A DNA stretch of 32,297 nucleotides, taken from Verrucomicrobiota bacterium (GTDB taxonomy: Bacteria > Verrucomicrobiota > Verrucomicrobiia > Opitutales > Opitutaceae). Below, one piece after another: positions 4,995 to 28,632 of the stretch. Location: positions 1 to 32,297 of the forward strand of contig JAQGON010000173.1 of the NCBI GenBank assembly GCA_028293565.1, given 5' to 3'. Position 1 is the stretch's first letter, and each line of letters begins with the position of its first letter. Under the pieces are notes generated by a model. The model was not told where the DNA came from. It saw nothing but the letters and a program-made list of their open reading frames with translations, and made no database searches. A program made the translations under genes and the position numbers.

Positions 4995-5890
4995 GGGGCG
5001 GTTCGGCTCTCCCAGCTGCGACGCAGCCGGCGAAGGATTTTTCGCGCGAGCCTGAACCGCACCGGCGGATTGGCCGCCCGCCACAATTCGCGGCACTGCG
5101 GATTTTCCCGCGGCTCGGGCCAGGCCGCCGGGGGCGCGGGGCGCACGACGGGGTTCGCCCAGGCTCCGGCCAGCGCGGCGTTCGTCGCCGTCGCGTCGAA
5201 TCCGCAGTGGTCCACCATCGACCAGGGCGGTCGCAGGCAAAGCCCGCGGTGCTGGAGGTGATGATAAATCCACCGCACGGCCCACGTGTTCTTGCGCTCC
5301 GCCTCCGCCGCCATCACCGGCAAATCCGCGCCATAGGCATCGGCGCTCACTCCGCCCTGCTCGGCCGCGGCCAGTTTTTCGCGGGCGGTCTGGTCCGTCA
5401 TCCCGCGCCAGGACCGCGGCCACGTCCCCCACACCCAGCACTCGGCGCGTCCGTCAAAATACGGCTCCTCGCCGATCCCCGACGGCGTCACGCGCGGGTG
5501 GGTCCAGGCCGTGATGCTCATCACCCGCGGATCGGACGCGTACCGGCGCAGGGCCGCACACGTCCACGCATAGGTTCCCGGCGCGGCGACGAGATCGTCC
5601 TCCCAGACAATGAAGGCGTCATGTTTCGCCGCGATCTCGCCCACTCCGCCGAGGATATTGCGCCCCAGGCCCAGATTCGCGGAGCGCTCCACGATTTTGA
5701 CCTCGGCCCAGTCGATCGCCCGCAGCTGCTCCCGCACCGCCGCGACGCCAGCCGCATCGGCCGGCCCTTTCGATCCGTCGGCGTAGGCATGGATCAGCGG
5801 CACTCCATTTTCGCGAAGGCACTCCAGGGTGCGCCGCAGGTGGTCGGGCCGCGCGTAGGCGAAGAGCACCACTGGAATCACGCTGCTCAT
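4991..5890 (-). CDS. HlpA-like glycosyltransferase (GT-A, GNT-I-like fold)
   Basis: The 299-residue protein opens with VIPVVLFAYARPDHLRRTL (4-22), the N-terminal signature of the bacterial family often labelled hemolytic protein HlpA-like, which is related to GT13/GNT-I. ERSANLGLGRNI (68-79) and IVWEDDL (94-100) follow, the EDD being the expected metal and donor-binding acidic cluster. The Trp-rich centre (AECWVWGTWPRSW, starting near 148) is also typical. It is predicted to act in the cytoplasm on a lipid-linked glycan. The ATG at 5890 overlaps the flippase stop (ATGA), and its own stop overlaps the methyltransferase GTG, so three genes are translationally coupled. Donor sugar unknown. Confidence 0.82.
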   Translation of the reverse strand: MSSVIPVVLFAYARPDHLRRTLECLRENGVPLIHAYADGSKGPADAAGVAAVREQLRAIDWAEVKIVERSANLGLGRNILGGVGEIAAKHDAFIVWEDDLVAAPGTYAWTCAALRRYASDPRVMSITAWTHPRVTPSGIGEEPYFDGRAECWVWGTWPRSWRGMTDQTAREKLAAAEQGGVSADAYGADLPVMAAEAERKNTWAVRWIYHHLQHRGLCLRPPWSMVDHCGFDATATNAALAGAWANPVVRPAPPAAWPEPRENPQCRELWRAANPPVRFRLARKILRRLRRSWESRTAP

Positions 5891-7206
5891 GTCCGGCGCA
5901 GGTATCTCCAGCCGAGCAGGGGAACGAGCAGCGCCCTCGTCTGCATCCGCGCCGTGGAGCGGGTGGCGGCGGAGAAATAGGACGACAGCCACGACGCGAA
6001 GGCCTGGGACACCACCGTCGCCGCCGCGGCGCCCAAGCCTCCCCAGCGGGGAATGACCATGACATTGAGCACGATGTTGATCACCGCGCCCGTGAGGGTC
6101 GCATAGAGATAGAATTGCTGCAGTCCTTCATTCACGAGCCACTGGCTGCGAGCGACGCCGATGAAGACAAAGACACTCGACCAGATGTGCACCACCACAA
6201 TCGGCGCCGATGCCGCGAAGGTCGGCCCGTATGCGACGCGGATCACCCACGGCGCGGCCAACGCCATGGGAACCGAAAGCGCATAGGCCACCGTGGCGTT
6301 CACGTCGTAGTAATGCTGCAGCCGTTCGCCGTAGGCCTGGTCGCCGCGTTCGCGCGCGCGCATCAACGCCGGCAGCAGGCTGGCGCCGAGGGCGATCGGA
6401 AAAAAATACCAGATCTCGGTCAGCCGCGTCGCCGCCGAATAGATTCCCACCGCACCGGGCCCGGCGAGATGACGCAGCATGACTTCGTCGATCTTCATAT
6501 ACAGCGTGATCGCGAGACCCGCGAACATCAGCGGCCACGACTCCAGAAAGAGCCGCCGCATCGTCGCCGCCTTCGCCGCCTTCCAGCTGAACTGCAGCCC
6601 CGCCCGGCGGGCGAGCCACGTGATTCCGACCGCGGCCAGCGCGGACTCCATCACGACCGCCAGTCCGAATGCCGCCAGCGGGGCGTCTTGGACGACGAGG
6701 AGCAGGCGCACGCCGGCCGCCGCCGCCAGTGCCGCCGTCTGGGCCATCACCGCGAACTTCGCCCGCAGATGCGCCTGGAGCCACAAATCCGACACCAGCC
6801 AGGCCGGCTGGAACAACGTCACCGCCAGGATCATGAGCAGCCGCCGCTCCTCCGCGGTGGGCGACCACGTCGTGAGCACGATCAGGCCCAGCACCGTCAC
6901 CAAGCCCGCCATCAGCCGGAGCGCCGCCGCGCTCGCGAGCAAGCCAGCCTCGCTGCCCGAGGACTTCAGCAGGTCCCGTTTCACCACCGCCTCCAGCCCG
7001 AGTCCCGCCACGCCGCTGAGGAGCGTGACCACCGCGATGCAGTAACTCAGCACCCCGAGACGCTCGGGTCCCAGATGCCGGGCGACGACAAAGCCGACAA
7101 CCACGCTCAGGACAAAACGCACCGCCCGCTCGCCAATCAGCCAGCCGAGGTTGACCGCCGCCCTTTGAAAACCGGATTTGGCGAAGACATCGGCCAGTGG
7201 CAGCAT
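5887..7206 (-). CDS. Wzx-like polysaccharide flippase (MOP superfamily)
   Basis: The 439-residue protein is almost entirely hydrophobic, with about twelve membrane segments. The N-terminal VVARHLGPERLGVLSY (41-56) is the family's entry signature, and the central YMKIDEVMLRHLAGPGAVG (236-254) with following YSAATRL matches the seventh-helix region of polysaccharide transporters. It would flip undecaprenyl-pyrophosphate-linked repeat units from the cytoplasmic to the outer leaflet. The ATG at 7206 gives the usual family length; the longer open frame runs into a repeat element (7293-7421) and is rejected. It is followed by three coupled genes for assembly enzymes and preceded by the aminotransferase gene across a 271-base gap, so it may have its own promoter. 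No Wzy polymerase is assigned beside it. Confidence 0.9.
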   Translation of the reverse strand: MLPLADVFAKSGFQRAAVNLGWLIGERAVRFVLSVVVGFVVARHLGPERLGVLSYCIAVVTLLSGVAGLGLEAVVKRDLLKSSGSEAGLLASAAALRLMAGLVTVLGLIVLTTWSPTAEERRLLMILAVTLFQPAWLVSDLWLQAHLRAKFAVMAQTAALAAAAGVRLLLVVQDAPLAAFGLAVVMESALAAVGITWLARRAGLQFSWKAAKAATMRRLFLESWPLMFAGLAITLYMKIDEVMLRHLAGPGAVGIYSAATRLTEIWYFFPIALGASLLPALMRARERGDQAYGERLQHYYDVNATVAYALSVPMALAAPWVIRVAYGPTFAASAPIVVVHIWSSVFVFIGVARSQWLVNEGLQQFYLYATLTGAVINIVLNVMVIPRWGGLGAAAATVVSQAFASWLSSYFSAATRSTARMQTRALLVPLLGWRYLRRT

Positions 7207-7292
7207 TCGCGCGACGATGAATTCGGCCTTCCGCTCCGTCAAGGGCAGCGCCGCGCCCGTAATGATACGGTGCAGACTTCCGCGGGTGGAAT

Positions 7293-7421
7293 GCGTTGTC
7301 GCAGACCCTGAGCTTGTCGAACGGGCCCTAAACGCGTTGGAGGCTCCGTCGACCACCAAGGTCCGCTCGCGCCAACAGCGCATTGAGGCCCGTTCGACAA
7401 GCCCAGGGTCTGCGACAATGC
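7293..7421. repeat. REP/BIME-like inverted repeat with 35-base arms
   Basis: The left arm (7293-7327) and the reverse complement of the right arm (7387-7421) agree at 33 of 35 positions. Both contain cgcagaccctg and cttgtcgaacgggcc, a word related to the widespread bacterial intergenic palindrome ccttcgacaagctcaggg. The 59-base centre also shows partial complementarity (gcgttgg near the left, ccaacagcgc near the right). The element sits between the aminotransferase stop and the flippase start, both on the minus strand. A hairpin here could attenuate transcription or protect the upstream mRNA. No transposase is present. Confidence 0.8.
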
Positions 7422-7477
7422 GCTCGAGCCGAGGCAAACTGGACCGCCACCGCCGCGACGCGTCGCCCGCCCTGCGG

Positions 7478-8611
7478 CTACGCGCCGTAAAACTCCCGCA
7501 CCTGGGCGATCACGAAATCCTGCTCCTCGGCGCCGAGCACGTTGAAGAACGGCAGCCGCACGAGACGGTCGCTGATGTCTTCCGTCACCGGACACTGGCC
7601 GGCGCGTCCCCCCAGGCGCCGGCCCATCGCCGAGGCGTGCAGCGGGACGTAGTGAAACACCGCGTGGATGCCGCGCGCCTTCAGGTGCGCGATGAGACGC
7701 GTGCGCTCGGCCGCCGTGCGCGTCAGGAGATAAAAGAGGTGGTACGCCTGCCCGCATTCCGCCGGCACCGTGGGCAGGCTGACGCCCGCGCTTTCCCTCA
7801 AGCCCAAAAGTCCGGAGTGGTAGCGCTCCCAGCGCGCGCGCCGCCGCGACTGGATGCTTTCGAATTCCTCGAGCTGCGCGAAGAGGAACGCCGCGAGGAT
7901 GTCGCCCATCACGTAGCTCGAGCCCACGTCGACCCAGGAATATTTGTCGACCTCGCCGCGGTTGAACCGGCTGCGGTCCGTGCCTTTCTCGCGGATGATC
8001 TCGGCCCGCGCCAGCAGTTCCGGCTGGTTGACGATCAGCGCTCCGCCCTCGCCGCAGCTCAGGTTCTTGGTCTCATGAAAGCTCAGGGTGCCGAGGCAGC
8101 CAAGGGTGCCCAGCGGACGCCCCCGGTAACGCGCGCCGAAACCGTGCGCGTTGTCCTCGACCAGCGCGACGCCGCGGCGGCTCGCGATCTCGCCGATCGT
8201 GTCCATCTCGCACGAGATCCCCGCATAGTGCATCACGACTGCCGCGCGCGTCCGCGGGGTGATCAGCGCCTCGAACTGCCGCTCGTCGAAGTTCAGCGTG
8301 TCGGGCCGCACGTCGATGAACACCGGCTTGGCTCCGCGCAGCACGAACGCGTTCACCGTCGAGACAAACGTGAACGACGGCACGATCACTTCGTCGCCCG
8401 GCTTGATCTCCAGCAGCAGCGCGGCCATCTCGAGCGCGTGCGTGCAGGAGGGGGTCAGCAGCGCGCGGCGGCAGCCAAGCAGTTCCTCGATGGCCTTGGA
8501 GCTGCTTCGCGTGAAGGGCCCGTCGCCGGCGAACTGGAGGTTCGCGAACGCCTGCTGCAGGTAGGCCGTCTCGCGGCCGGTGAGGTACGGTTTGTTAAAG
8601 GGGATCTGCAT
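7478..8611 (-). CDS. rffA: dTDP-4-amino-4,6-dideoxygalactose transaminase (WecE/RffA type)
   Basis: The 377-residue protein belongs to the DegT/DnrJ/EryC1/StrS PLP-dependent sugar aminotransferases and closely resembles WecE (RffA). That enzyme transfers an amino group from glutamate to dTDP-4-keto-6-deoxyglucose, giving dTDP-4-amino-4,6-dideoxygalactose (Fuc4N). Recognisable stretches are IPFNKPYLTGRE (3-14), the GDGPFT loop (29-34), LTPSCTHALEMAALLL (52-67), VEDNAHGFGA (151-160) whose D153 should contact the pyridine nitrogen, and SFHETKNLSCGEGG (177-190) with K182 as the Schiff-base lysine. Length and N-terminus match the family, supporting the ATG at 8611. It lies three bases after the WbqC-like gene and near a NeuD-like acyltransferase, suggesting an N-acylated product. 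Dehydratase and thymidylyltransferase genes must be elsewhere. Confidence 0.93.
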   Translation of the reverse strand: MQIPFNKPYLTGRETAYLQQAFANLQFAGDGPFTRSSSKAIEELLGCRRALLTPSCTHALEMAALLLEIKPGDEVIVPSFTFVSTVNAFVLRGAKPVFIDVRPDTLNFDERQFEALITPRTRAAVVMHYAGISCEMDTIGEIASRRGVALVEDNAHGFGARYRGRPLGTLGCLGTLSFHETKNLSCGEGGALIVNQPELLARAEIIREKGTDRSRFNRGEVDKYSWVDVGSSYVMGDILAAFLFAQLEEFESIQSRRRARWERYHSGLLGLRESAGVSLPTVPAECGQAYHLFYLLTRTAAERTRLIAHLKARGIHAVFHYVPLHASAMGRRLGGRAGQCPVTEDISDRLVRLPFFNVLGAEEQDFVIAQVREFYGA

Positions 8612-8614
8612 GGG

Positions 8615-9319
8615 TCAGGATTTTTCCGGAACGGCGGTCATCATCCGCCGGCAGTCCGCCAGCGGCACGTTGGCGAGCAGGTCGATCACGGAGACGCCAT
8701 GCTCGAACGGCTCCGACAGCTGCGGATACTCCGGATAGCCGCCGTAGCTCTTGAAACGGAGGTCGATCCCCGCCTGCGCAAAAAGGTGCTCCTGCCCCGC
8801 GAGATACTCGCGCGCGCTCGGGCCGCTGAGATATTCGGTCGCGCCCAGCTGCCGCAGCAGCGAGACGAGCCGCTCGACGCGGTCGCCCTCGAGGTCGAAC
8901 TCCTTCGCGTGCCGGAACCGGGTCTGCAGTCCGAGCAGGCGCGCGATCGTCTCGGTGCAGTGGTAGTTCAATTCGCCCAGCCGCCTCCACTCGCGCGACT
9001 CGTAGAAATCCGCCAGCAGGGGTTCGATCTGCGCGAAATGCTTCGCGGGCCGGTAGGTGTGGGCGAGGGTCTTGCGATGCTCGGCCTGCCAGCGGGGATC
9101 CGGCAGCCGGACGTCGCTGATCTTCTGCTTCACCGCCTCCCTCCCGACCGGGATCGTCAGCCAGTGACAGCCGTTCTTCGAGCAGATCCGGTTCCGGTTG
9201 CGCCAGTCGTTCTTCGTGTACTGCACCTCGTCGTAATACACAAAGACGTCCGCCTCCTGGATCAGGTCGAAATAACCTTTCCACGGCAGATAGTTCGACT
9301 GCAGGACCACCGCGCGCAT
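8615..9319 (-). CDS. WbqC-like family protein
   Basis: The 234-residue soluble protein is a clear WbqC family member (PF08889). The N-terminus has QSNYLPWKGYFDLI (7-20) and YYDEVQYTKNDWRNRNRI (28-45), and the following WLTIPVG (53-59) is also conserved. WbqC-like genes are recurrent in O-antigen and capsule clusters, frequently next to 4-amino-sugar aminotransferases and acyltransferases. Its reaction is not settled to my knowledge; a part in acylating or otherwise modifying amino sugars is inferred from context. It is packed between the acyltransferase gene (2-base gap) and the aminotransferase gene (3-base gap), so the three almost certainly share one transcript. Confidence 0.92.
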   Translation of the reverse strand: MRAVVLQSNYLPWKGYFDLIQEADVFVYYDEVQYTKNDWRNRNRICSKNGCHWLTIPVGREAVKQKISDVRLPDPRWQAEHRKTLAHTYRPAKHFAQIEPLLADFYESREWRRLGELNYHCTETIARLLGLQTRFRHAKEFDLEGDRVERLVSLLRQLGATEYLSGPSAREYLAGQEHLFAQAGIDLRFKSYGGYPEYPQLSEPFEHGVSVIDLLANVPLADCRRMMTAVPEKS

Positions 9320-9321
9320 CG

Positions 9322-9957
9322 TCAGCCGAGCGAGAGCGGCCGGTCGAGCAGCCGCTGCGGATTCCCGACCACGGACGCGTCGTCCGGGACGTCCTGCGTG
9401 ATCACGGTGCCGATGCCGGCGATCGCGCGCGCGCCGACCCGGCGGTGGTCCGCCACCAGGGTGCCGGCGCCGAGGAACGCCGCCGTCCCGATCGTGACGT
9501 ACCCGGCCACGACGACTCCCGGCGACAAACAGGCCGCCGCCCCGATTTTCGAGTCATGGGAGATCACCACCGAGTTGTTCAGCATCACCCCCGCCTCCAG
9601 CTCGACCTGGTGATCGAGGTTGCACAGCGGGTAAACGAGCGATCCGGCGCCGATCCGCGCGCTGGGCGCGACGTGGCAGGACGGATGCACCAGCGCCGGC
9701 ACCCGGCGGCCCGCCGCGAGCAGCGCGCGGATGATCTCGGCGCGGAGCGGCAGGTGCCGATACCCGAGCCCCACATAAAAATCGGCATCGGCGAAGCGCG
9801 GTTCGAGATAGGCCTCGAACGGAAACGCGTCCGGCTCGCCCTTCGCGCTCCGGGGATCGTCGAAGCGGAACACTTTTCCCGGAGGATGGACCGCGCCGAG
9901 CTGGGCGAGAATCTGCCGGCCGAGCTCGCCGCAGCCGATGATTCCCACCGCCTTCAT
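9322..9957 (-). CDS. Sugar O/N-acyltransferase, NeuD/PglD-like, left-handed beta-helix
   Basis: The 211-residue protein has the two-part layout of NeuD/PglD. An N-terminal Rossmann-like nucleotide-sugar-binding part begins GIIGCGELGRQI (5-16), and a hexapeptide-repeat beta-helix runs from about residue 88 to 205. LVHPSCHVAPSARIG (88-102) and NNSVVISHDSKIG (126-138) are characteristic; H133 aligns with the catalytic base of PglD. The expected reaction is transfer of an acetyl (or other acyl) group from acyl-CoA to the amino group of a dTDP or UDP sugar. With the WecE-like aminotransferase two genes downstream, dTDP-Fuc4N is the natural candidate acceptor, which is inference. The ATG overlaps the methyltransferase stop (ATGA). 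Confidence 0.9.
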   Translation of the reverse strand: MKAVGIIGCGELGRQILAQLGAVHPPGKVFRFDDPRSAKGEPDAFPFEAYLEPRFADADFYVGLGYRHLPLRAEIIRALLAAGRRVPALVHPSCHVAPSARIGAGSLVYPLCNLDHQVELEAGVMLNNSVVISHDSKIGAAACLSPGVVVAGYVTIGTAAFLGAGTLVADHRRVGARAIAGIGTVITQDVPDDASVVGNPQRLLDRPLSLG

Positions 9958-10805
9958 TTGGTGGCGACGAACCCGAGATACTTGAACATCGCCCGCGACA
10001 CCGGCAGCGCCTTCGCGAGCGCCTCGCTCACCGTCCGCGCCTGCCGCAGCAGCTCTTCGCGCGGCGCCGCGCCGCTGTTGATCAGCGCGCCCTCGCCGAG
10101 AAACCAGTGATAGTGAAACTCCACGCGGGAAAAGCCGGCGCCGAGCAGCTGGCTCCGCAGCGCATTCTCCTCGAAGCCGCCGGCGATGTCCTTGCCGTAC
10201 TCCGCGTGGTTGAACGTCTCGCGCGGCACGCCGAACTTCGCCTCGATCTCCTCGTCCTTGAACGTCACGGCCTCGATTTCCCGGGCGACGATCGGGTCGT
10301 GGCCGCCGTCGCGTTTCAGGCGGCGGATCTCATCCCAGAAATAAAAATTGGGATCCAGGTCGGCGTAAAACTTTCCCCCGGGCGCGAGCGCGCGGTGCGC
10401 GGTGCGGAAGGTGGGCCCGACCTCGGCGAGATGATGCAGGAACGAATAGGCCGTCACCACCTGGTAGGCCCCCGGGGCGGCCGGGTAGGTGCCGGTGTCG
10501 TGATTCACCAGTTCGATCTTCGCCGGACCCGAGCGATCGACCCGCTCGAGCATCGCCGGCGTCACGTCGACGCCCGTGATGCGCCGCAGGTGCGGCTTGG
10601 CGATCGCGATCATGAAACCCGTCCCGCAGCCGAGATCGAGCAGGCTCTCGGCCCGGGTCTCCGCGACCAGCGCCGCCAGCCGCTGCTCGACCTTCGCGAC
10701 GTTCTCGGGGCGGAAATGCGGCTCGCAGGACTGGTACTGCGCCGCGAGCCGGGTGTGCACGGCGACGTTGGCGTCGATGACTTTTTGATTGATGGAGGAC
10801 GGCAC
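9954..10805 (-). CDS. Class I SAM-dependent methyltransferase
   Basis: The 283-residue protein carries motif I SLLDLGCGTGF (54-64), the acidic ITGVDVTPAMLERV (76-89), a YSFLHHLAEVG segment and LAPGGKFYADLDPNFYF, a complete class I SAM-binding fold. The C-terminal half, with FNHAEYGKDIAGG and FHYHWFLGEGA, is specific and not one I recognise. The GTG at 10805 was chosen because it follows the dioxygenase stop by one base; no ATG near the domain start is available. The stop overlaps the NeuD-like start. Within this block it may methylate a sugar or an acyl substituent, or a small molecule destined for the glycan. Substrate unknown. Confidence 0.83.
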   Translation of the reverse strand: MPSSINQKVIDANVAVHTRLAAQYQSCEPHFRPENVAKVEQRLAALVAETRAESLLDLGCGTGFMIAIAKPHLRRITGVDVTPAMLERVDRSGPAKIELVNHDTGTYPAAPGAYQVVTAYSFLHHLAEVGPTFRTAHRALAPGGKFYADLDPNFYFWDEIRRLKRDGGHDPIVAREIEAVTFKDEEIEAKFGVPRETFNHAEYGKDIAGGFEENALRSQLLGAGFSRVEFHYHWFLGEGALINSGAAPREELLRQARTVSEALAKALPVSRAMFKYLGFVATK

Positions 10806-10806
10806 G

Positions 10807-11580
10807 TTATTCCGCACGCTGCTTGAATTTTCGGAGTTCCGGCGGCGCATAATATTCCGCGTAGCTCGCCGGGACCTGGGCATCGAAGCCCAGTTTCTGG
10901 CGGGCGGCCGGGGAGAGCGCCGACAGGTCAAGGTGCGCCATCGCCCGGGGGATGTCGATGCGCTGCTTCATCCAGGGCCGCGCCATGTTGATCGTCAGCG
11001 CATGACGCCACCGGGCGGAGCGGTTCTGGCCGCCGGCGTGCCAGGTGCGCGCGTTGAAAAACCAGACGGAGCCCGCCGGAGCCAGCACACGCCGCGCCTG
11101 GGCCCGGAAGGTTTTTTCGTCGGGCGCTTCCGCCAGGCCCTGCGACGCCGGCAGGTGCCAGGTCGCCCCGTTTTCCTCCGTGAAGTCATCGAGCAGGATC
11201 GTCGCGCCCATGTTCGTGACGTAACCCGGGATCAGCCGCGGACTGTCGACGTGCAGCCGCCCGGAATAATTCCCCGAGTTCGGCGGCATCGAGGACGACG
11301 TGTAGGCGTAGACGATGCAGCCGTCGCCGAGGACGGCGTTGAAGGGATCCGTCAACCCGGGATTGTCGAAGAGCCTCCAGAACGCGCCGCCGTACAACGA
11401 GCACAGCAGGACCATCCCGTAATCGCGGTAGTCGCGGGTTCCATGGTAGCTCACCTCGGCCTCGATCGCGGCCTCGAGCTCCTTTTTCACGGTCGCGACA
11501 AACGCCGGGTCGAGCACGCCCGGGACCAGGACGCTGCCGCCGGCCTGAAACTCCCGGACGAACGCCTCGCGCTCAAGCAT
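10807..11580 (-). CDS. Phytanoyl-CoA dioxygenase (PhyH) family protein
   Basis: The 257-residue protein is a predicted Fe(II)/2-oxoglutarate-dependent hydroxylase. The double-stranded beta-helix metal triad is visible: H110-V-D112 in GRLHVDSPR and H181 in ARTWHAGGQNRS, with R190 or R192 as the 2-oxoglutarate-binding arginine. GSVWFFNARTWH (170-181) is the usual strand before the distal histidine. PhyH members hydroxylate fatty acyl groups, amino acids and small metabolites, and they occur sporadically in glycan and lipid clusters. Here it could hydroxylate an acyl decoration or a sugar precursor, which is inference. The ATG at 11580 overlaps the end of the upstream GT2 by eight bases; an in-frame start at 11601 would add seven residues. 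Confidence 0.88.
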   Translation of the reverse strand: MLEREAFVREFQAGGSVLVPGVLDPAFVATVKKELEAAIEAEVSYHGTRDYRDYGMVLLCSLYGGAFWRLFDNPGLTDPFNAVLGDGCIVYAYTSSSMPPNSGNYSGRLHVDSPRLIPGYVTNMGATILLDDFTEENGATWHLPASQGLAEAPDEKTFRAQARRVLAPAGSVWFFNARTWHAGGQNRSARWRHALTINMARPWMKQRIDIPRAMAHLDLSALSPAARQKLGFDAQVPASYAEYYAPPELRKFKQRAE

Positions 11581-12553
11581 GACCGGCCTCCGCTTCGACA
11601 TTCACCGTGCTGCGGATCACGTAGAGCGGCCGGCGCTGCACCTCGCGCAGCACCCGGCCGAGGTAAAGACTCGCGAGGCCGGTCACGCTCAGCTGCGCGC
11701 CGCCGAGAAACACGATGAGACAGACGGTCGACGTGTACCCGAGGAGGATGTCACGGAAGAACAGTTTCTGGACCATCAGCACGCCCGCGAGCACGGCGCT
11801 CACGGCCACCACCGCGAAGCCGAAGAGCACGGTGATTTTCAGCGGCAGGTCCGAAAACGAGATCACCGCGTCCGTGGCCATGAACAGGCGCCGGGAAAAG
11901 TTGTAGCTGGAACGCCCGCGGCTCCGCTCCTGGTGAACGACGTCCACGTAGGCGCGCCTGAACCCCAGCCAGCTCTCCAGGCCCGGCAGGTAGCGGCTGC
12001 TTTCGCTGAGCGAGTTGTAGGCGTCGACAAAGCGCCGGTTCATCACGCGGACCGTCGCCACGTTCAGCGGCACCTCGTAGCCCGTGAGCTTGTTGAGGAA
12101 AATCCCGAACAGGCGCGAGGTGAGGTTGTCGCCCGCGGGACCGGCCCGGCGCTGCCGCAGGCCGAACACGATGTCGCAGTCGTCCGACTCGATTTTCCGC
12201 AGGAGCAGCGGAATCTGGTCCGGGTGCTCCTGGAGATCCACGTTCAGCATCCCGACATATTTCCCGGCCGCGTGACGGTACCCGCAGGAAAGCGCGATGT
12301 GCTGCCCGAAGTTGCGGCTGAGATTGATGACGCGCACGAAGGCATGCTGCGAGGCCGCCTGCGCGAGGACGGCGGCCGAGCGCTCGTCGGGGCTGCCATC
12401 GTTGACGAAGATCAGCTCGACCTGCGGGGCAATGTCGCCGGCTCCGAGGAATTCCTGAAACACCCGCCGGTATTCCCGGCAGAAATCCTCCGCCAGATCG
12501 GCGTCGTTGTAGATCGGGACGACGAAGGAATATGTCGGCAGTGGCTGGGCCAT
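11573..12553 (-). CDS. GtrB/ArnC-like polyprenyl-phosphate glycosyltransferase with two membrane helices
   Basis: The 326-residue protein has an N-terminal GT2 domain: SFVVPIYND (9-17), FVNDGSPDE (49-57), LSRNFGQHIALSCGY (78-92), and MLNVDLQEHPDQIP (102-114) containing the metal-binding acid. Two hydrophobic hairpin helices follow at roughly 232-300. This is the layout of GtrB, ArnC and CsbB-like enzymes, which make undecaprenyl-phosphate-linked sugars for GT-C transferases on the outer face. The ATG at 12553 precedes the domain by eight residues; the upstream in-frame start adds six. It heads the ten-gene minus-strand block and diverges from a GT-C-like gene 135 bases away, a natural donor-consumer pair. 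Confidence 0.9.
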   Translation of the reverse strand: MAQPLPTYSFVVPIYNDADLAEDFCREYRRVFQEFLGAGDIAPQVELIFVNDGSPDERSAAVLAQAASQHAFVRVINLSRNFGQHIALSCGYRHAAGKYVGMLNVDLQEHPDQIPLLLRKIESDDCDIVFGLRQRRAGPAGDNLTSRLFGIFLNKLTGYEVPLNVATVRVMNRRFVDAYNSLSESSRYLPGLESWLGFRRAYVDVVHQERSRGRSSYNFSRRLFMATDAVISFSDLPLKITVLFGFAVVAVSAVLAGVLMVQKLFFRDILLGYTSTVCLIVFLGGAQLSVTGLASLYLGRVLREVQRRPLYVIRSTVNVEAEAGHA

Positions 12554-12688
12554 CGGCACGACAGCAAGCAAAGCCCACCTCGCGCGGCAAGACGAGCGGC
12601 ATTTTGCCGGCCCTCCGTTTGAAAGCCCGCCATGGCGCGCGCATTTGCATCGCCCTGCCTTCGGCGTCGCGCCCTAATCCGGCATTTC
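12554..12688. promoter_or_regulatory. Divergent intergenic region, presumed promoters for two large blocks
   Basis: These 135 bases separate the first gene of the minus block (start 12553) from the first gene of the plus block (start 12689), so promoters in both directions are expected. I see no convincing sigma-70 hexamer pair, operator palindrome or Shine-Dalgarno sequence. The role is inferred only from gene orientation. Confidence 0.35.
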
Positions 12689-15289: not shown

Positions 15290-16897
15290 ATGACCAACCG
15301 GGTGTTTCATCGAATTCCTTCGCCCGGCTGGATCCTCATCGTCGCGGTGTGCCTCGGCTTCGCGGGATTCACCGGCCACATGTGGGAGGATTATTTCATC
15401 ACGTTTCGCGCGAGCCTGAATCTGGCCACCGGGCACGGCCTGGTGTTTCAGCCGGGCGAGCACGTGCACACGTTCACCTCCCCGCTCGGCACGCTGCTGC
15501 CCGCGCTGTTGGCGCTGGGCGACGGCGCCGAGGTCGCGGTGCGGGCGCTCTGGTTGTTCCGGATCGTCAGCGCCGTCGCGCTCGCCTCCGCCATCGCGCT
15601 CGCCGCGCGAACGATGACGCGGTCCGGCCTTGCGCCATTTGCCCTCGTCGCCGCCTGCGCGGCGTGGAGCCTCGATCCCAAGACCGTCGATTTCTCGATC
15701 AACGGCATGGAGACCGCGCTGCTCGTCCTTTTCATCGTTGCCGCCTGGCGCGCGCTGGCGGACGGCGCGCGCCTGCTTCCCACGGCGGTCGCGTTCGCCG
15801 GGCTGCAGTGGACGCGTCCCGATGGCTGCGTGTTTTTCGCCGCGCTCGCGGCGGGGTGGCTGGTTTTCGGCGCGACCGAAAACGGTCCCGGGCGCGCCGA
15901 GCGGCTGGGACGGCTCGTGCGCGGCGTGGCGCTCGGCGGCGTCGCGTACCTCCCGTGGGTGGCTTTCGCGTGGTGGTATTACGGCTCCCCGCTGCCGCAT
16001 ACGATCATGGCGAAGGTTTCGCACCATGGGCCGGGAGAACTCGGGCCGGCACTGCTGCTTTATCCCTGGCGCCTGTTGTTCGGACACACCGCGCTCCATG
16101 ATGTCTTCATGCCGGCCTATTCGTTCTTCGGCGGCTGGCCTCCGGCCCTGGCCTGGTATTCGCGCGTCGTCGTGGTGATCGCCGCGGGTGGCTGGCTCGT
16201 TCCCGCGATGCGTCCAGCCGGACGCATGGCGTCGCTGGCCTTTTTCCTCGGGGGCTTCTACGTCGAATACATCCCGCGTTCGCCATGGTACTATCCGGGC
16301 TGGCAGGCGCTGGCGCTCGTGGCCTCGGCGTTCCTGCTCGATGCCGCGCTGCGGACCGATTTGAAACCGCGCGCGCAAGGGTTCGTCCGCCTCGCCCGCG
16401 GCGCGGGAATCATCTTCGTCACCGTCCAAGCCGCCCTGCTGGCGAGCGTCGCCTGGCAAATGCGCGAACAACAATCAATCATCGAGAACGGCCACCGCCG
16501 GGAAATCGGCCTCTGGCTTCGCGCGCACGCGGCGAAGGGCGACCGGGTGTATCTGGAGCCCCTTGGCTACGTCGGCTATTTTTCAGGGCTGAAAATGCTC
16601 GATTATCCCGGCCTGTCCTCGCCCGAAGTCGTCGCCGCGCGGCGCGCCGGCCATCGCCCCCATGCCGATCTCATCGCCGTCCTGCAGCCGGAGTGGCTCG
16701 TGCTGCGGCCGGACCAGGCGCGCGGCATCGCGGCCGACCGGCCGGAGCTCCTGACGAAGGACTATCGTCTCGAGCACGGGTTCGACGTGCGGGCGCAAGT
16801 GGATTCGATCCGTTTCCTTCCCGGTCGGGGCTATCTCGATTTCGACGCCGTGTACCTCGTCTTCCAACGCACCGCCCAAGCCGCGGCGCCGCGATGA
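15290..16897 (+). CDS. Polytopic membrane protein, probable GT-C glycosyltransferase (WEDYFITFR type)
   Basis: The 535-residue protein carries MWEDYFITFR (31-40), then NLATGHGLVFQPGEHVH (44-60) and TFTSPLG (61-67). This block recurs in a large group of bacterial GT-C-like proteins (usually DDAYITFRY, GHGLVFNPGE, TSPLW), where the paired acids lie in the first periplasmic loop. About nine or ten further helices reach residue 391, followed by a soluble tail of about 144 residues. The ATG at 15290 was chosen because it lies just before the first helix; the frame opens earlier inside the GT2 gene. The stop overlaps the next membrane-protein gene (ATGA). Sugar and acceptor are unknown. Confidence 0.82.
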   Translation: MTNRVFHRIPSPGWILIVAVCLGFAGFTGHMWEDYFITFRASLNLATGHGLVFQPGEHVHTFTSPLGTLLPALLALGDGAEVAVRALWLFRIVSAVALASAIALAARTMTRSGLAPFALVAACAAWSLDPKTVDFSINGMETALLVLFIVAAWRALADGARLLPTAVAFAGLQWTRPDGCVFFAALAAGWLVFGATENGPGRAERLGRLVRGVALGGVAYLPWVAFAWWYYGSPLPHTIMAKVSHHGPGELGPALLLYPWRLLFGHTALHDVFMPAYSFFGGWPPALAWYSRVVVVIAAGGWLVPAMRPAGRMASLAFFLGGFYVEYIPRSPWYYPGWQALALVASAFLLDAALRTDLKPRAQGFVRLARGAGIIFVTVQAALLASVAWQMREQQSIIENGHRREIGLWLRAHAAKGDRVYLEPLGYVGYFSGLKMLDYPGLSSPEVVAARRAGHRPHADLIAVLQPEWLVLRPDQARGIAADRPELLTKDYRLEHGFDVRAQVDSIRFLPGRGYLDFDAVYLVFQRTAQAAAPR

Positions 16898-18687
16898 GCC
16901 TCGTGGATCTTCTCGTCGGCGCCGCCGCCGTCGCCGTGCTGCTGGCGCCCGGCTGGATGCTCGCGCGCGCCGCGCGGATTCCGTACGCGCCGCTGGCCGG
17001 ATTCATCGCGAGCGTGGCGGGATTGGTGATGGTGGTGCTGTTGCTGGACGCGCTCGCGGTGCCGCTGACCCTCGCGTCATGCGGAGCGGTCTGGCTTCTG
17101 CTCACGGCCGCGATCGGGTGGTTCGGGCGGAAGACGATTTTTCGCGGGGCGGCCCTTCCGGCTTCCGCGCCGTTTGCGTGGCGGGAACACTGGCCCCTTT
17201 TCCTCGCGCTGATTCCGGCGGGCATGGTTGTCCTCTATCGGGCGACGGCCCAGCCGCTGTTCGGAATCGACACGGTTTTCCGCTGGAATTTTCTGGCGCT
17301 GCAGATGGTGGCGCGCGGCGCGCTGGGATTTTATCCGCCGGTGACCGCGGCCGACTATGAAATCTACGCCTGGCCCGACGGCATCGCGCCGGCGGTCTCG
17401 GTGATTTATTTCTGGGTTTACACGGTCGCGCATGCGACGCGTCCGATCCTGACGGCGCCGGCCGTGATCCTCCAATACGCCCTGCTCCTCGCCGGAGCCT
17501 TCGCGCTCGCGCGGCGTTTTTTTTCCGATCGCGCGGCGGCCTTCGCCCTCGCTTTCGTGGCCTGCTCGCCGGTGGTGGCATGGGCGACCGCGATGGGCCA
17601 GGAAAGCGGGCTGGTCGCGCTCTCGCTCGTCGCGCTGCTGCTGTACCTTCCGCGGGAGCGCGCGGACGAGACCCTCGGCGGCGCCGCGTTCGCCGGCCTC
17701 GCCGCGGGGCTGGGAGCGCTCGCCCGCGAATACGGACTCGCGTTGATCCTGCTCGGATTGGCGCTCGCGCTGGCGCGGCGGCTCTCGTGGCGCTCGCTGG
17801 TCTGCTTCGCCGCGGCCGCCGCGCTCGCCGCGTTTCCCTGGTATCTCCGCAACTGGATTCACACCGGAAATCCGCTGTTCAACCTCGGGCTGGGCGGCTG
17901 GTTTCCGATCAACCGGACGCACGCCTGGCTGATCCAGAGTTACCAGGAGGAGTTTGGCTGGACCCGCGTTTCGGCCGCCGCGCTGCGGTTCCTCTTCGTC
18001 AACTGCGCGGTCGTGCTGGCGGCGGGGCTGGCGGGCGCAGCCGTCGCTTTCCGCCGCGCGCGCTCATTGCTGGTGGCGGCTGCGCTGATCGTCGCCCTTT
18101 GGGCGGCATCGCTCGGCTACACGGCGGCGGGCTTCACGACCGCCATCCGCGTGCTGAGTCCCGCGCTCGTGATTCTGGCCGTGCTGGGCGGGGCGGCGGG
18201 CGCGCGATGGATCCCGGGCGAACGCCGCCTCGGGGTCGTCGGCCTCGGGCTCATGCTGGTCGCGACCGACGCCGCGCTGAGGGCGCTGACGCTGCCGGGC
18301 ACGGTCTACCAGATCCCGCGCGCCGACTGGCTCGCCGCGGGAAATGCGGTGCATGAGTATCACTCCCGGCCGGTTTACCGGGAGATCGCGCGCTTTGCCG
18401 GAGCCGAGCGAATCCTCGTGCTCGGACCCAACGCCCTGCTCACGCTCAACGGCGCGCGGACGGTTCCGCCCTGGAGCCCGGAGGTGGCGTTCCTCTTTGA
18501 CGACCGCCTCCCGGCCGCCGAAGTGGCGCGACGGCTGCGGGCGGCGAACATCGGATTCATGCTGCTGAACCAGGGGCCCGCCAACGAACGGTTCCTCGCG
18601 CACAGCGCTTATTTTCGCGAACCCGGCGGCACGCTGAAGGCAATGCGGTTCGACGATCAGATTCTGCTGAAGGTCGTGAGCCCGTGA
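16894..18687 (+). CDS. Polytopic membrane protein, GT-C-like with N-terminal helical extension
   Basis: The 597-residue protein starts with three or four hydrophobic segments (roughly residues 5-110) before a putative acidic loop PLFGIDTVFRWNFLALQM (121-138, D126), followed by YEIYAWPDGIAP (155-166). Membrane segments continue to about residue 462, and a soluble tail of 135 residues follows. The overall layout suggests a GT-C fold preceded by extra helices, similar to the protein at 18879-20600. The start overlaps the upstream stop (ATGA), implying translational coupling; the open frame upstream of 16894 is a shadow. A repeat element follows the stop. Family assignment is tentative, and a transport or polymerase role is possible. 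Confidence 0.75.
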   Translation: MSLVDLLVGAAAVAVLLAPGWMLARAARIPYAPLAGFIASVAGLVMVVLLLDALAVPLTLASCGAVWLLLTAAIGWFGRKTIFRGAALPASAPFAWREHWPLFLALIPAGMVVLYRATAQPLFGIDTVFRWNFLALQMVARGALGFYPPVTAADYEIYAWPDGIAPAVSVIYFWVYTVAHATRPILTAPAVILQYALLLAGAFALARRFFSDRAAAFALAFVACSPVVAWATAMGQESGLVALSLVALLLYLPRERADETLGGAAFAGLAAGLGALAREYGLALILLGLALALARRLSWRSLVCFAAAAALAAFPWYLRNWIHTGNPLFNLGLGGWFPINRTHAWLIQSYQEEFGWTRVSAAALRFLFVNCAVVLAAGLAGAAVAFRRARSLLVAAALIVALWAASLGYTAAGFTTAIRVLSPALVILAVLGGAAGARWIPGERRLGVVGLGLMLVATDAALRALTLPGTVYQIPRADWLAAGNAVHEYHSRPVYREIARFAGAERILVLGPNALLTLNGARTVPPWSPEVAFLFDDRLPAAEVARRLRAANIGFMLLNQGPANERFLAHSAYFREPGGTLKAMRFDDQILLKVVSP

Positions 18688-26488: not shown

Positions 26489-26516
26489 ATTATTTTCGGG
26501 CCATGACGGCGGTAAA
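26489..26516 (-). promoter_or_regulatory. Candidate sigma-70-like promoter for the methyltransferase/membrane-protein pair
   Basis: Reading the minus strand, TTTACC (26516-26511) is followed after 16 bases by AATAAT (26494-26489). These match the -35 and -10 consensus at four and five of six positions. The implied start would leave a leader of only about 12 bases before the ATG at 26470. It lies in a 158-base divergent gap. An imperfect palindrome (acccggatttcaaaccgggt, 26592-26611) nearer the plus-strand gene could be an operator. Confidence 0.3.
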
Positions 26517-26628
26517 GCGCCAAGATGCGGGGTGGAAACACGAATTTCCAACTTCCAAATCTCCATGCACCCCAAATCGCCGAAGGCTTTTACCCGGATT
26601 TCAAACCGGGTCGTCCGCATTTCCTGAA

Positions 26629-28632
26629 ATGCCCCGCCGCTCGATCTGGCTCATTCCCGCCGTCGCCCTGCTGCTGGCGGTGCACTGGGTGCTCGCGGTC
26701 GGGAGCAAGCAGGCCGAGAGCGTGACCGCCGACGAGCTGGCGCACCTCACGGGCGGCTTCACGTACTGGAAATTCAACGACTACCGCGTCCAGCCGGAGA
26801 ACGGCAACCTGCCCCAGCGCTGGGCGGCGCTCCCGACGTGGCTCGGGGGGGCGACGTTTCCCGACCTGGCCGGCAACGGGTATTGGCGGACGTCGGACGC
26901 CTGGGTGCTCGGGCACCAGTTCTTCTATGAAACCGGCGAGGATCATTTTCCGCGGCTGATGGCCGGGCGCGCGATGATCGCGCTCTTCAGCGTGGCCACG
27001 GGCCTGCTGATCTTTGCGTGGTCCCGGCGGCTTTTCGGCGCTGTCGGCGGATTCGTGTCGCTCGGGTTCTTTGTCTTCTGCCCCAATTTTCTGGCGCACG
27101 GGGCGCTGGTGACGTCCGACGCGTGCATGGTGTTTTTCTTTCTCGCCGCCGTCGGTGCCTACTGGCGTCACCTGCACGATCCCGGGAAACGGTGGTGGTG
27201 GCTCAGCGCGGCCGTGTTCGGCCTGGCGTGCGTCGCGAAATTTTCAGCGGTGCTGCTGCTGCCCATGATGGGGTTGATGGCCATCGTGCGCGCGCTGGCC
27301 GACGAACCGCTGCAGCTGGCGGGCCGCACGTGGTTTCGCTGGCCGGGAAAGCTGGGCGCGATCGCCGTTTCAACCCTGGGGCACGGGGTCGTCGCGGTCG
27401 CCGTCATCTGGGCCTTCTTCGGCTTTCGCTACTCCGCCTTCAATCCGGCCCTGCCGGGCGCGGATCATTTCATTCGTCCATGGAGCGTGACGCTCGGCCA
27501 TATCGGCCTGCAGGAGCCGCTGGTGCGCGCGCTGATGGCCGGGCAGATCCTGCCGGAGGGATTTCTCTACGGATATTCCTTCGTGGTGGAGATGTCGCAG
27601 TTCCGCTCGGCGTTCCTCGACGGAGATTTCAGCTACGTCGGCTGGGTGCGTTTCTTTCCGCTGGCGTTTCTCTACAAGACGACGCTGCCGGTCTTGGCCG
27701 TGTGCGGCGCGATCGCCGGCGTCGCGATCCGCCGCGGCCGGCGCTCGGGCTGGCTCGGGGCGTTTTCCCGCCTCTACCCGTTCACTCCCCTCCTGGTTCT
27801 CTTTGCGGTCTACTGGCTCGTGTCGCTCATCATCAAATTGAACATCGGCCACCGGCATATTCTTCCGACCTATCCGGTGATCTTCATCCTCGCCGGCGCG
27901 CTCGGCGCCTGGTTCACCGCGCGGCGCCCCCTCGGGATCCTCGTGATCGCCGGCCTGCTCGTCTGGCAGGCGGCGGAGGCGGTGCGGATCTACCCGCACT
28001 ATCTCGCCTACTTCAATCCGCTCGCCGGCGGACCCGCCAACGGACACCGGCATCTCGTCGACAGTTCGCTGGACTGGGGGCAGGATCTTCCGGGCCTGAA
28101 GGCGTGGCTTGAGGAAAATGTCCACGGCGAACCGGTCTTCCTTTCCTACGCGGGAAACGGCGAGCCGGAATATTACGGGATTCGCGCGCACCGGCTTCCT
28201 TTCGTCAACGGCTTCAAGATCCAGCAGTCATGGGTGCCGCTCGCGCCCGGCGTGTACTGCATCGGCGCGACGATGCTTGAGCACGTCTACAGCCCCATCC
28301 AGGGGCCATGGACTCCCGCGCTGGAGAAGGAATACCAGTTCATGCGCACGTTTGAGCCCGCGTTCCGGATTTACTTCGCCGACGGCGCGCGCCGCGTCCA
28401 GATGGACCGCGAGGCGAGTCCGGACAAATGGAAGAAGGCCTGGTCCCGTCACGACGTGTTGCGCTTCGCCCGTCTCTGTCACTACCTCCGGGCAAGAAAG
28501 CCCGACGCGGACGCGGGCCACTCGATCCTGATTTATCGCTTGAGCGCTGAAGAAATCGCCGCGGCGACCGAGGGAACGATCGACGAATGGCGGGCGGCGA
28601 TCAGACATCTCGGCGGCGATCCGGATCGGTAG
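26629..28632 (+). CDS. GT39-like (PMT_2-type) polytopic membrane glycosyltransferase
   Basis: The 667-residue protein shows TADELAHLTGGFTYWKFNDY (33-52) followed by QPENGNLPQRWAALP (55-69). This is a recurrent signature of dolichyl-phosphate-mannose-protein-mannosyltransferase-like proteins in several environmental phyla; D35 and E36 are the expected catalytic-loop acids. Helices continue to about residue 465, including NIGHRHILPTYPVIFILAG (405-423). A soluble tail carries DSSLDWGQDLPGLKAWL (478-494), also diagnostic of the group. It should transfer a sugar from a polyprenyl-phosphate donor on the outer membrane face, to protein or glycan. The ATG at 26629 precedes the first helix. The stop codon's last base begins a repeat element. 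Confidence 0.87.
   Translation: MPRRSIWLIPAVALLLAVHWVLAVGSKQAESVTADELAHLTGGFTYWKFNDYRVQPENGNLPQRWAALPTWLGGATFPDLAGNGYWRTSDAWVLGHQFFYETGEDHFPRLMAGRAMIALFSVATGLLIFAWSRRLFGAVGGFVSLGFFVFCPNFLAHGALVTSDACMVFFFLAAVGAYWRHLHDPGKRWWWLSAAVFGLACVAKFSAVLLLPMMGLMAIVRALADEPLQLAGRTWFRWPGKLGAIAVSTLGHGVVAVAVIWAFFGFRYSAFNPALPGADHFIRPWSVTLGHIGLQEPLVRALMAGQILPEGFLYGYSFVVEMSQFRSAFLDGDFSYVGWVRFFPLAFLYKTTLPVLAVCGAIAGVAIRRGRRSGWLGAFSRLYPFTPLLVLFAVYWLVSLIIKLNIGHRHILPTYPVIFILAGALGAWFTARRPLGILVIAGLLVWQAAEAVRIYPHYLAYFNPLAGGPANGHRHLVDSSLDWGQDLPGLKAWLEENVHGEPVFLSYAGNGEPEYYGIRAHRLPFVNGFKIQQSWVPLAPGVYCIGATMLEHVYSPIQGPWTPALEKEYQFMRTFEPAFRIYFADGARRVQMDREASPDKWKKAWSRHDVLRFARLCHYLRARKPDADAGHSILIYRLSAEEIAAATEGTIDEWRAAIRHLGGDPDR

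Follow-up and report, generated by a model that had tools for sequence, protein, structure and literature searches.

What is the function of a WbqC-like protein whose gene lies between those of an aminotransferase and an acyltransferase? The question is raised by a stretch of 32,297 nucleotides from a Verrucomicrobiota bacterium of the family Opitutaceae (assembly GCA_028293565.1, contig JAQGON010000173.1, positions 1 to 32,297 of the forward strand; hereafter, the window), in which three minus-strand genes are arranged head to tail. Read in the direction of transcription, they code for a NeuD-like left-handed beta-helix acyltransferase (9957-9322, 211 amino acids), the WbqC-like protein (9319-8615, 234 amino acids), and a DegT-family aminotransferase of the WecE class (8611-7478, 377 amino acids). 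The coordinates of the open reading frames (ORFs) bear out the tight spacing described in the original prediction, with gaps of only 2 and 3 bases. The span of 7478..9957 given there does hold the three genes, but it is too short as the extent of the cassette, as a methyltransferase gene upstream of the NeuD-like gene overlaps it by 4 bases. We propose that the cassette probably makes an aminoacylated nucleotide sugar, in which WbqC would join an amino acid to the amine made by the aminotransferase and the acyltransferase would cap it. This reading is supported by the structural match of modeled WbqC proteins to the putative ligase BshC and by the agreement between gene content and sugar substituents in Escherichia coli O-antigen clusters.

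The aminotransferase (7478..8611, minus strand) matches the DegT profile PF01041 with 306 bits and scores above the cut-offs of both NF008687 (552.4 bits; cut-off, 375) and TIGR02379 (500 bits; cut-off, 434.85), which upholds the class identity behind the WecE-type chemistry proposed earlier. Its closest two solved chains, 6blg and 4piw, are both named dTDP-4-amino-4,6-dideoxygalactose transaminase, and the motif SFHETKN contains a lysine, K182, that we take to be the one that binds pyridoxal phosphate. Judging from its sequence, the predicted product is deoxythymidine diphosphate (dTDP)-4-amino-4,6-dideoxygalactose (dTDP-Fuc4N), formed by 4-transamination of dTDP-4-keto-6-deoxyglucose. This substrate can be made in the genome, because RmlA (493.1 bits) and RmlB (487.6 bits), both over their cut-offs, are encoded on another contig.

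The WbqC-like protein (8615..9319, minus strand) is the only copy in its genome and matches WbqC PF08889 with 242.5 bits (cut-off, 21.3), the only family found in a Pfam scan at an E value of 0.001, where the BshC family PF10079 was not matched. The accounts available to us describe WbqC as perhaps involved in O-antigen production (PMC5507510, PMC7848895), and the literature searched assigns no reaction to it, while structural papers on O121 and O123, which lie outside that literature, may hold an earlier gene assignment. A sequence profile retrieved no relative of solved structure at an E value of 10, so that the evidence on the fold comes from predicted models. (Pairings of the family are described below; the alignment used here, A4, combines 57 of 80 WbqC sequences from genomes, 27 of 38 from viral contigs, and that of the window.) With these 85 sequences, the AlphaFold model of the window WbqC reached a predicted local distance difference test (pLDDT) score of 94.7, and VIA-align, applied to the Foldseek candidates, placed BshC of Bacillus subtilis (4wbd) first, with a Z score of 14.0 and a root mean square deviation (rmsd) of 3.5 over 223 of the 234 residues, followed by class I aminoacyl-tRNA synthetases and CoaD at a Z score of 8.8 or less. 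The same protein came first for a second model, that of a viral WbqC only 32% identical to that of the window (pLDDT, 92.1; Z score, 12.4; rmsd, 3.1; 203 of 218 residues), with the next match at 7.9. Pantothenate synthetase, TyrRS, GluRS, and CoaD, considered as specific fold relatives, are lower in both lists and were taken to reflect the general HUP fold.

The match to BshC runs along nearly the whole chain of the modeled WbqC, and the chemistry proposed for BshC is the aminoacylation of a sugar amine. In the sections of the literature at hand, BshC is a putative ligase that adds cysteine to the amine of glucosamine (GlcN)-malate in bacillithiol synthesis and has a Rossmann core with bound ADP (PMC5372718, PMC4360819). 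The fold of WbqC thus suggests that it may ligate amino acids to sugar amines. The two families differ in that BshC is 540 residues long, contains a coiled-coil domain, and has GlcN-malate and cysteine as its described substrates, and in that their sequences show no detectable relation. BshC is also present in 17 of the 19 WbqC-carrying genomes tested, so WbqC is not a stand-in for it. Among 119 WbqC members, including that of the window, Q7 is found in 119, R42 in 118, and P12, G15, and Y89 in 117 each; together with P57, these invariant or nearly invariant positions are candidate active-site residues.

The second line of evidence comes from E. coli. The O-antigen cluster of strain 2014C-3599 (O121 by its wzx/wzy annotation) has the order rfbB-rfbA-DegT-WbqC-GNAT-wzx, and the O121 wbqC gene occurs in 13 of 5,426 E. 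coli genomes, always flanked by genes annotated as DegT and GNAT. 4-Amino-4,6-dideoxyglucose (Qui4N) is described as occurring in its N-acetylglycyl form, with the E. coli O121 structure cited for it (PMC3210612), and the listing for Shigella dysenteriae D7 likewise gives N-acetyl-glycyl-Qui4N (PMC10609480). An N-acetylglycyl group on the amine is the product expected of DegT, WbqC, and an acetyltransferase if WbqC adds the glycine. A further case came to light after the ligase hypothesis had been framed. A VioA-like gene was found in 171 of the 5,426 genomes, and among eight such loci read in the annotation, two carry WbqC, both of type O123/O186 by their flippase and both with the order DegT-WbqC-hypothetical-GNAT-MaoC (this wbqC gene is present in 10 of the 5,426 genomes). 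The substituent listed for E. coli O123 is N-[(S)-3-hydroxybutanoyl]-D-alanyl on Qui4N (PMC10609480), where MaoC would explain the 3-hydroxybutyryl group. Both E. coli cluster types with WbqC code for a GNAT in place of NeuD.

No WbqC was found within about 5 kb in the other six VioA-like loci (O7 with VioB, O39, two with the O116 flippase, O49, and JCC-EE 7 with an ABC transporter). O7 reportedly makes dTDP-Qui4NAc, going by the title of Wang 2007. For O116, an acetyl group on Qui4N is given (PMC3210612), and the part of an E. coli cluster survey available to us names VioA and VioB, hence dTDP-N-acetylviosamine (dTDP-VioNAc), for O39, O49, and O116 (PMC4732683). The rule that WbqC goes with an amino acid on the amine therefore fits all four cluster types whose substituent is known (O121, O123, O116, and O7), and this comparison supports the earlier idea that WbqC acts on the amino sugar. 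The O49 cluster (L268, 4280-6471) codes for VioA, a NeuD/VioB-type acyltransferase, and MaoC, without WbqC; set beside O123, it suggests that the presence of MaoC indicates a hydroxyacyl donor and that of WbqC the amino acid. The O123/O186 cluster also has, between the WbqC and GNAT genes (L264, 6806-7780), a gene for a 324-amino-acid protein without a Pfam match, which we would guess to be concerned with the supply of D-alanine. This protein has no similarity to the extra proteins of the compared Rhizobium and Azospirillum clusters, and an extra protein common to these clusters was rejected.

We analyzed the neighborhoods of WbqC in four sets of loci: the best 80 of at least 519 WbqC stretches from genomes, with up to 8 kb on each side; 38 viral contigs (L146-L183); 27 loci from 24 other genomes of the phylum of the window, in which 25 of 288 genomes carry WbqC (that of the window included); and 10 hand-picked loci from a plasmid collection. 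They were gathered by mutual similarity, so some share descent, and L031 of the same-phylum set and L094 of the genome set look like one locus, with an identical map. As a control, we used 30 of 38 places with a flippase (PF01943) in the phylum of the window, with similar flanks, omitting two in the genome of the window itself, three in G004, one each in G029 and G047 near contig ends, and the second flippase of the G051 locus. One control locus (L237) itself contains WbqC, loci cut by contig ends were retained, and the control, coming from this phylum only, suits the 27 same-phylum loci better than the 80 genome loci.

A DegT aminotransferase lies within 7 kb of WbqC in 64/80 genome, 19/27 same-phylum, and 8/10 plasmid loci, compared with 3/30 in the control (Fisher test, 1.6e-11 for the genome set and 2.8e-6 for the same-phylum set). 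WbqC relatives on the viral contigs have DegT within this distance in 16 of the 38, a value from a stricter profile that replaces the 31 of 38 obtained by a lax phmmer search of the whole locus. DegT is directly adjacent on the same strand in 17/80 genome, 3/38 viral, 13/27 same-phylum, and 3/10 plasmid loci, and in none of the 30 control loci. The original prediction had called for such a survey, and the co-occurrence of WbqC with DegT that it anticipated is indeed far over the control. Its argument from a conserved gene order had to be rejected, as the order varies, with NeuD-WbqC-DegT in L066, L079, L081, and L121, WbqC-NeuD-DegT in L090, L092, L103, L123, and L144, and DegT-WbqC without NeuD in L034, L045-L050, and the E. 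coli O121 and O123/O186 clusters. Thus, what stands of the earlier interpretation is the WecE identity, the link between WbqC and DegT, and the action of WbqC on the amino sugar, and what falls is the conserved order.

A search with the WecE model in 30 genomes chosen from the 80-locus set found exactly one WecE over the cut-off in 27 of them, and in 23 of these 27, the WecE-class gene is inside the WbqC locus; the remaining four copies are about 10 kb off (L094), about 86 kb off (L073), or on a contig that was not placed (L075 and L082). We read the WecE pairing as a trait of the WbqC subfamily of the window and the DegT pairing as a trait of the whole family. A GT2 glycosyltransferase of the ArnC/PgfS-like cluster (at least 300 bits on the profile of the neighbor cluster of the window GT2) is present in 62 of the 80 genome loci. 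Neither PIG-L deacetylases, seen in three loci of the scanned set (L065, L056, and L040), nor O121-type GNATs, also in three (L207, L223, and L035), emerged as general partners of WbqC.

The role of the third protein is where the alternatives diverge. The NeuD-like acyltransferase (9322..9957, minus strand) matches Hexapep PF00132 with 42.8 bits and NeuD_NnaD TIGR03570 with 137.5 bits over residues 5-202, under the cut-off of 160.8, so that it is assignable to superfamily level only. It aligns with the pilin glycosylation protein 4m98 (4-202) and with the perosamine N-acetyltransferase 4ea7 (71-203). A conserved histidine had been pointed out in the beta-helix as H133; the residue is there, but its correct number is H134, which stands opposite the histidine of the DHD motif of 4ea7 and is presumably catalytic. 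NeuD-like genes lie within 7 kb of WbqC in 29/80 genome, 11/38 viral, 3/27 same-phylum, and 4/10 plasmid loci, against 0/30 in the control, so the expected co-occurrence exceeds the control, but with 3/27 in the same phylum, NeuD is not an obligatory partner. It is a frequent but optional one.

The original prediction had taken this protein as a good candidate to acylate Fuc4N and left the step of WbqC open; the comparison with E. coli suggests different roles, in which WbqC would aminoacylate the amine and the amino acid would in turn be capped by the acyltransferase. The opposite assignment, in which NeuD acetylates the 4-amine to give dTDP-Fuc4NAc and WbqC works later or elsewhere, for instance, by attaching an acyl group or an amino acid to a lipid-linked intermediate or to a different sugar within the same glycan, would apply if NeuD acts on the free 4-amine, and we consider it unlikely. 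Solved relatives of the protein do include acetyltransferases of 4-amino nucleotide sugars (the perosamine N-acetyltransferase, the bacillosamine enzyme, and VioB), and 51 of the 80 genome loci have WbqC but no NeuD within 7 kb of it, so a shared substrate is not needed. The amine of the O121 and O123 sugars bears an amino acid instead, with WbqC as the gene beside the aminotransferase, and 13 of the 27 same-phylum loci have DegT next to WbqC, but none has NeuD there. Across all sets, NeuD adjoins WbqC in 19/80 genome, 7/38 viral, and 0/10 plasmid loci, and it adjoins the flippase in 0/30 control loci.

It is improbable, in our judgment, that WbqC, rather than being a ligase, processes the acyl donor as an acyltransferase or hydrolase or removes a blocking group in the manner of ArnD. 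The cassette recalls the Arn set in having DegT and an ArnC-like GT2, weak PMT_2 membrane proteins are found elsewhere in the window, and HUP folds occur in enzymes of other chemistry. Nevertheless, the fold matches shown comprise a putative ligase, tRNA synthetases, CoaD-type nucleotidyltransferases, and pantothenate synthetases, with no acyl hydrolase among them, and amino acids are present on the sugar in both E. coli cluster types with WbqC. That the link of WbqC to DegT reflects mere shared residence in polysaccharide clusters transferred horizontally as a whole is very improbable: many WbqC loci look like glycan clusters and some share descent, but flippase loci, which are glycan loci too, rarely have DegT (3/30), the 80 loci span many phyla with differing gene orders, and the pairing recurs on viral contigs (16/38).

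Several observations do count against WbqC as the amino acid ligase. PglD and PerB, relatives of NeuD, acetylate sugar amines directly, so that WbqC would find no amine left free, and NeuD is next to WbqC in the genome loci (19/80) as often as DegT is (17/80). Foldseek alone gave no match in the PDB under an E value of 0.001 for the window WbqC, with 4wbd absent from the 50 rows shown, and sequence homology between WbqC and BshC had to be rejected, as profile-profile comparison (hhalign) gave probabilities of 1.0% and 0.2%. In the 288 genomes of the phylum, WecE is found in 46 and WbqC in 25, but both in only 6, where about 4 are expected, so a WecE-WbqC pairing across the phylum was rejected, even if the two genes are less than 20 kb apart in 4 of the 6. 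The E. coli agreement comprises four cluster types and came from DNA-level searches, which miss divergent genes, and the 13 records carrying the O121 wbqC include one named O103. The in vitro activity of BshC was described as undemonstrated as of 2015 in the portions consulted (PMC4360819, PMC5372718). Last, E. coli O114 has N-acetyl-L-seryl on 3-amino-3,6-dideoxyglucose (Qui3N), and the account of its cluster, as far as it is available to us, names no WbqC (PMC2905691), so other enzymes may also aminoacylate amino sugars.

With WbqC as the ligase, the pathway would start with RmlA and RmlB, encoded elsewhere in the genome, which by their families should supply dTDP-4-keto-6-deoxyglucose for transamination to dTDP-Fuc4N by the WecE-class enzyme (7478-8611). 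WbqC (8615-9319) would then form an amide between the carboxyl group of an amino acid and the 4-amine, which is the new claim here; activation by ATP is the likeliest route, given the BshC-like HUP-domain fold, and is the weakest step of the scheme. The NeuD-like protein would stand in for the GNAT of O121 and O123 and cap the amino group of the added amino acid to give dTDP-Fuc4N-(N-acyl-aminoacyl), the product of the overlapping methyltransferase gene may modify the sugar further, and the ArnC-like GT2 and nearby membrane enzymes could place the sugar on a lipid carrier, leading to a surface glycan. There is a precedent for aminoacyl-Fuc4N in Treponema medium, for which D-aspartyl on Fuc4N is listed (PMC10609480). 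As a general rule, DegT would make the amine and WbqC would add the amino acid, with the cap coming from an acyltransferase that is exchangeable (NeuD, GNAT, or none). We lean, with less assurance, toward the broader view that WbqC proteins are widespread stand-alone amino-acid:amino-sugar ligases with a BshC-like HUP fold, found in many phyla with a partner aminotransferase (in phages, a deacetylase) and an exchangeable capping enzyme, and that the window holds the Fuc4N version.

The compilation cited above (PMC10609480) documents well that glycans can have amino sugars bearing amino acids, and we met no named enzyme for the aminoacylation of the sugar amine in such glycans in the literature searched. 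Should WbqC prove to be the ligase, a reaction that can be tested becomes available for a family of unknown function, the chemistry of O antigens and capsules becomes legible from gene clusters, and BshC gains small fold relatives that are perhaps easier to assay. If the broader view is true, many bacterial phyla use WbqC to decorate surface glycans with amino acids.

The cassette has further neighbors on the minus strand. The S-adenosylmethionine (SAM)-dependent methyltransferase ORF (9954..10931; PF08241, 61.6 bits), whose stop overlaps the start of the NeuD-like gene, probably has its true start nearer 10850. Farther upstream are a PhyH-type 2-oxoglutarate dioxygenase (10807..11601; PF05721, 76.8 bits), possibly in the same transcription unit as the cassette and with matches in 4/80 genome and 10/38 viral WbqC loci, and a GT2 glycosyltransferase of the ArnC/PgfS (undecaprenyl-phosphate sugar transferase) type (11573..12571; PF00535, 80.7 bits), which scores 175.8 bits on PgfS and 137.9 bits on ArnC PRK10714, both far under the cut-offs of 500 and 529. 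Downstream, beyond an inverted repeat, is a Wzx-like flippase ORF (5887..7437; PF01943, 84.1 bits) with its real start probably near 7206. The repeat, at 7280-7434 between the WecE-class and flippase genes, consists of 48 nucleotides at 85% complementarity with the core CCTGAGCTTGTCGAACG; the 17-mer core has 34 copies in the genome, compared with 0 for the reversed control, and the element is an interspersed palindromic repeat. The membrane ORFs at 16285-18687 and 26503-28632 have weak family matches only.

Some WbqC loci are of a different kind. In the Vibrio phage VH2_2019 (L065, 5324-9072), a PIG-L deacetylase gene is followed directly by WbqC, a methyltransferase-like gene, a second WbqC-like gene, and a glycosyltransferase gene, in a region that also holds recA, ruvC, and ParB-type genes and is possibly a sugar-based modification pathway with aminoacylation. 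The pair of PIG-L and WbqC parallels BshB followed by BshC in the bacillithiol pathway, an illustration from a partner seen in three loci. On a Streptomyces vietnamensis plasmid (L064, 2118-9536), WbqC lies between UDP-galactopyranose mutase and DegT, with radical SAM, SPASM, and NTP transferase genes, in what looks like a natural-product cluster.

Compared with known systems, the closest to the window is the E. coli O121 cluster (RfbB-RfbA-DegT-WbqC-GNAT), as both bring together an aminotransferase, WbqC, and an acyltransferase around a dTDP-6-deoxy-4-amino sugar. They differ in that the O121 aminotransferase is VioA-like, with 186 bits on NF008687 (cut-off, 375), which points to Qui4N rather than Fuc4N, and in that O121 has a GNAT where the window has the NeuD-like protein; the two WbqC proteins are 23% identical over 169 aligned residues. 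The Arn pathway for 4-amino-4-deoxy-L-arabinose (L-Ara4N) shares the DegT aminotransferase and an ArnC-like GT2, although the GT2 of the window is far under the ArnC cut-off, and it uses formyl protection and deprotection on a UDP sugar where the window has WbqC and NeuD. The VioA-VioB and WecE-WecD (RffC) cassettes also place DegT beside an N-acetyltransferase for a dTDP-4-amino sugar, but they lack WbqC and give plain N-acetyl products (for O7, going by a paper title). The cassette of the window would be a variant of these aminotransferase-acyltransferase cassettes with one extra step.

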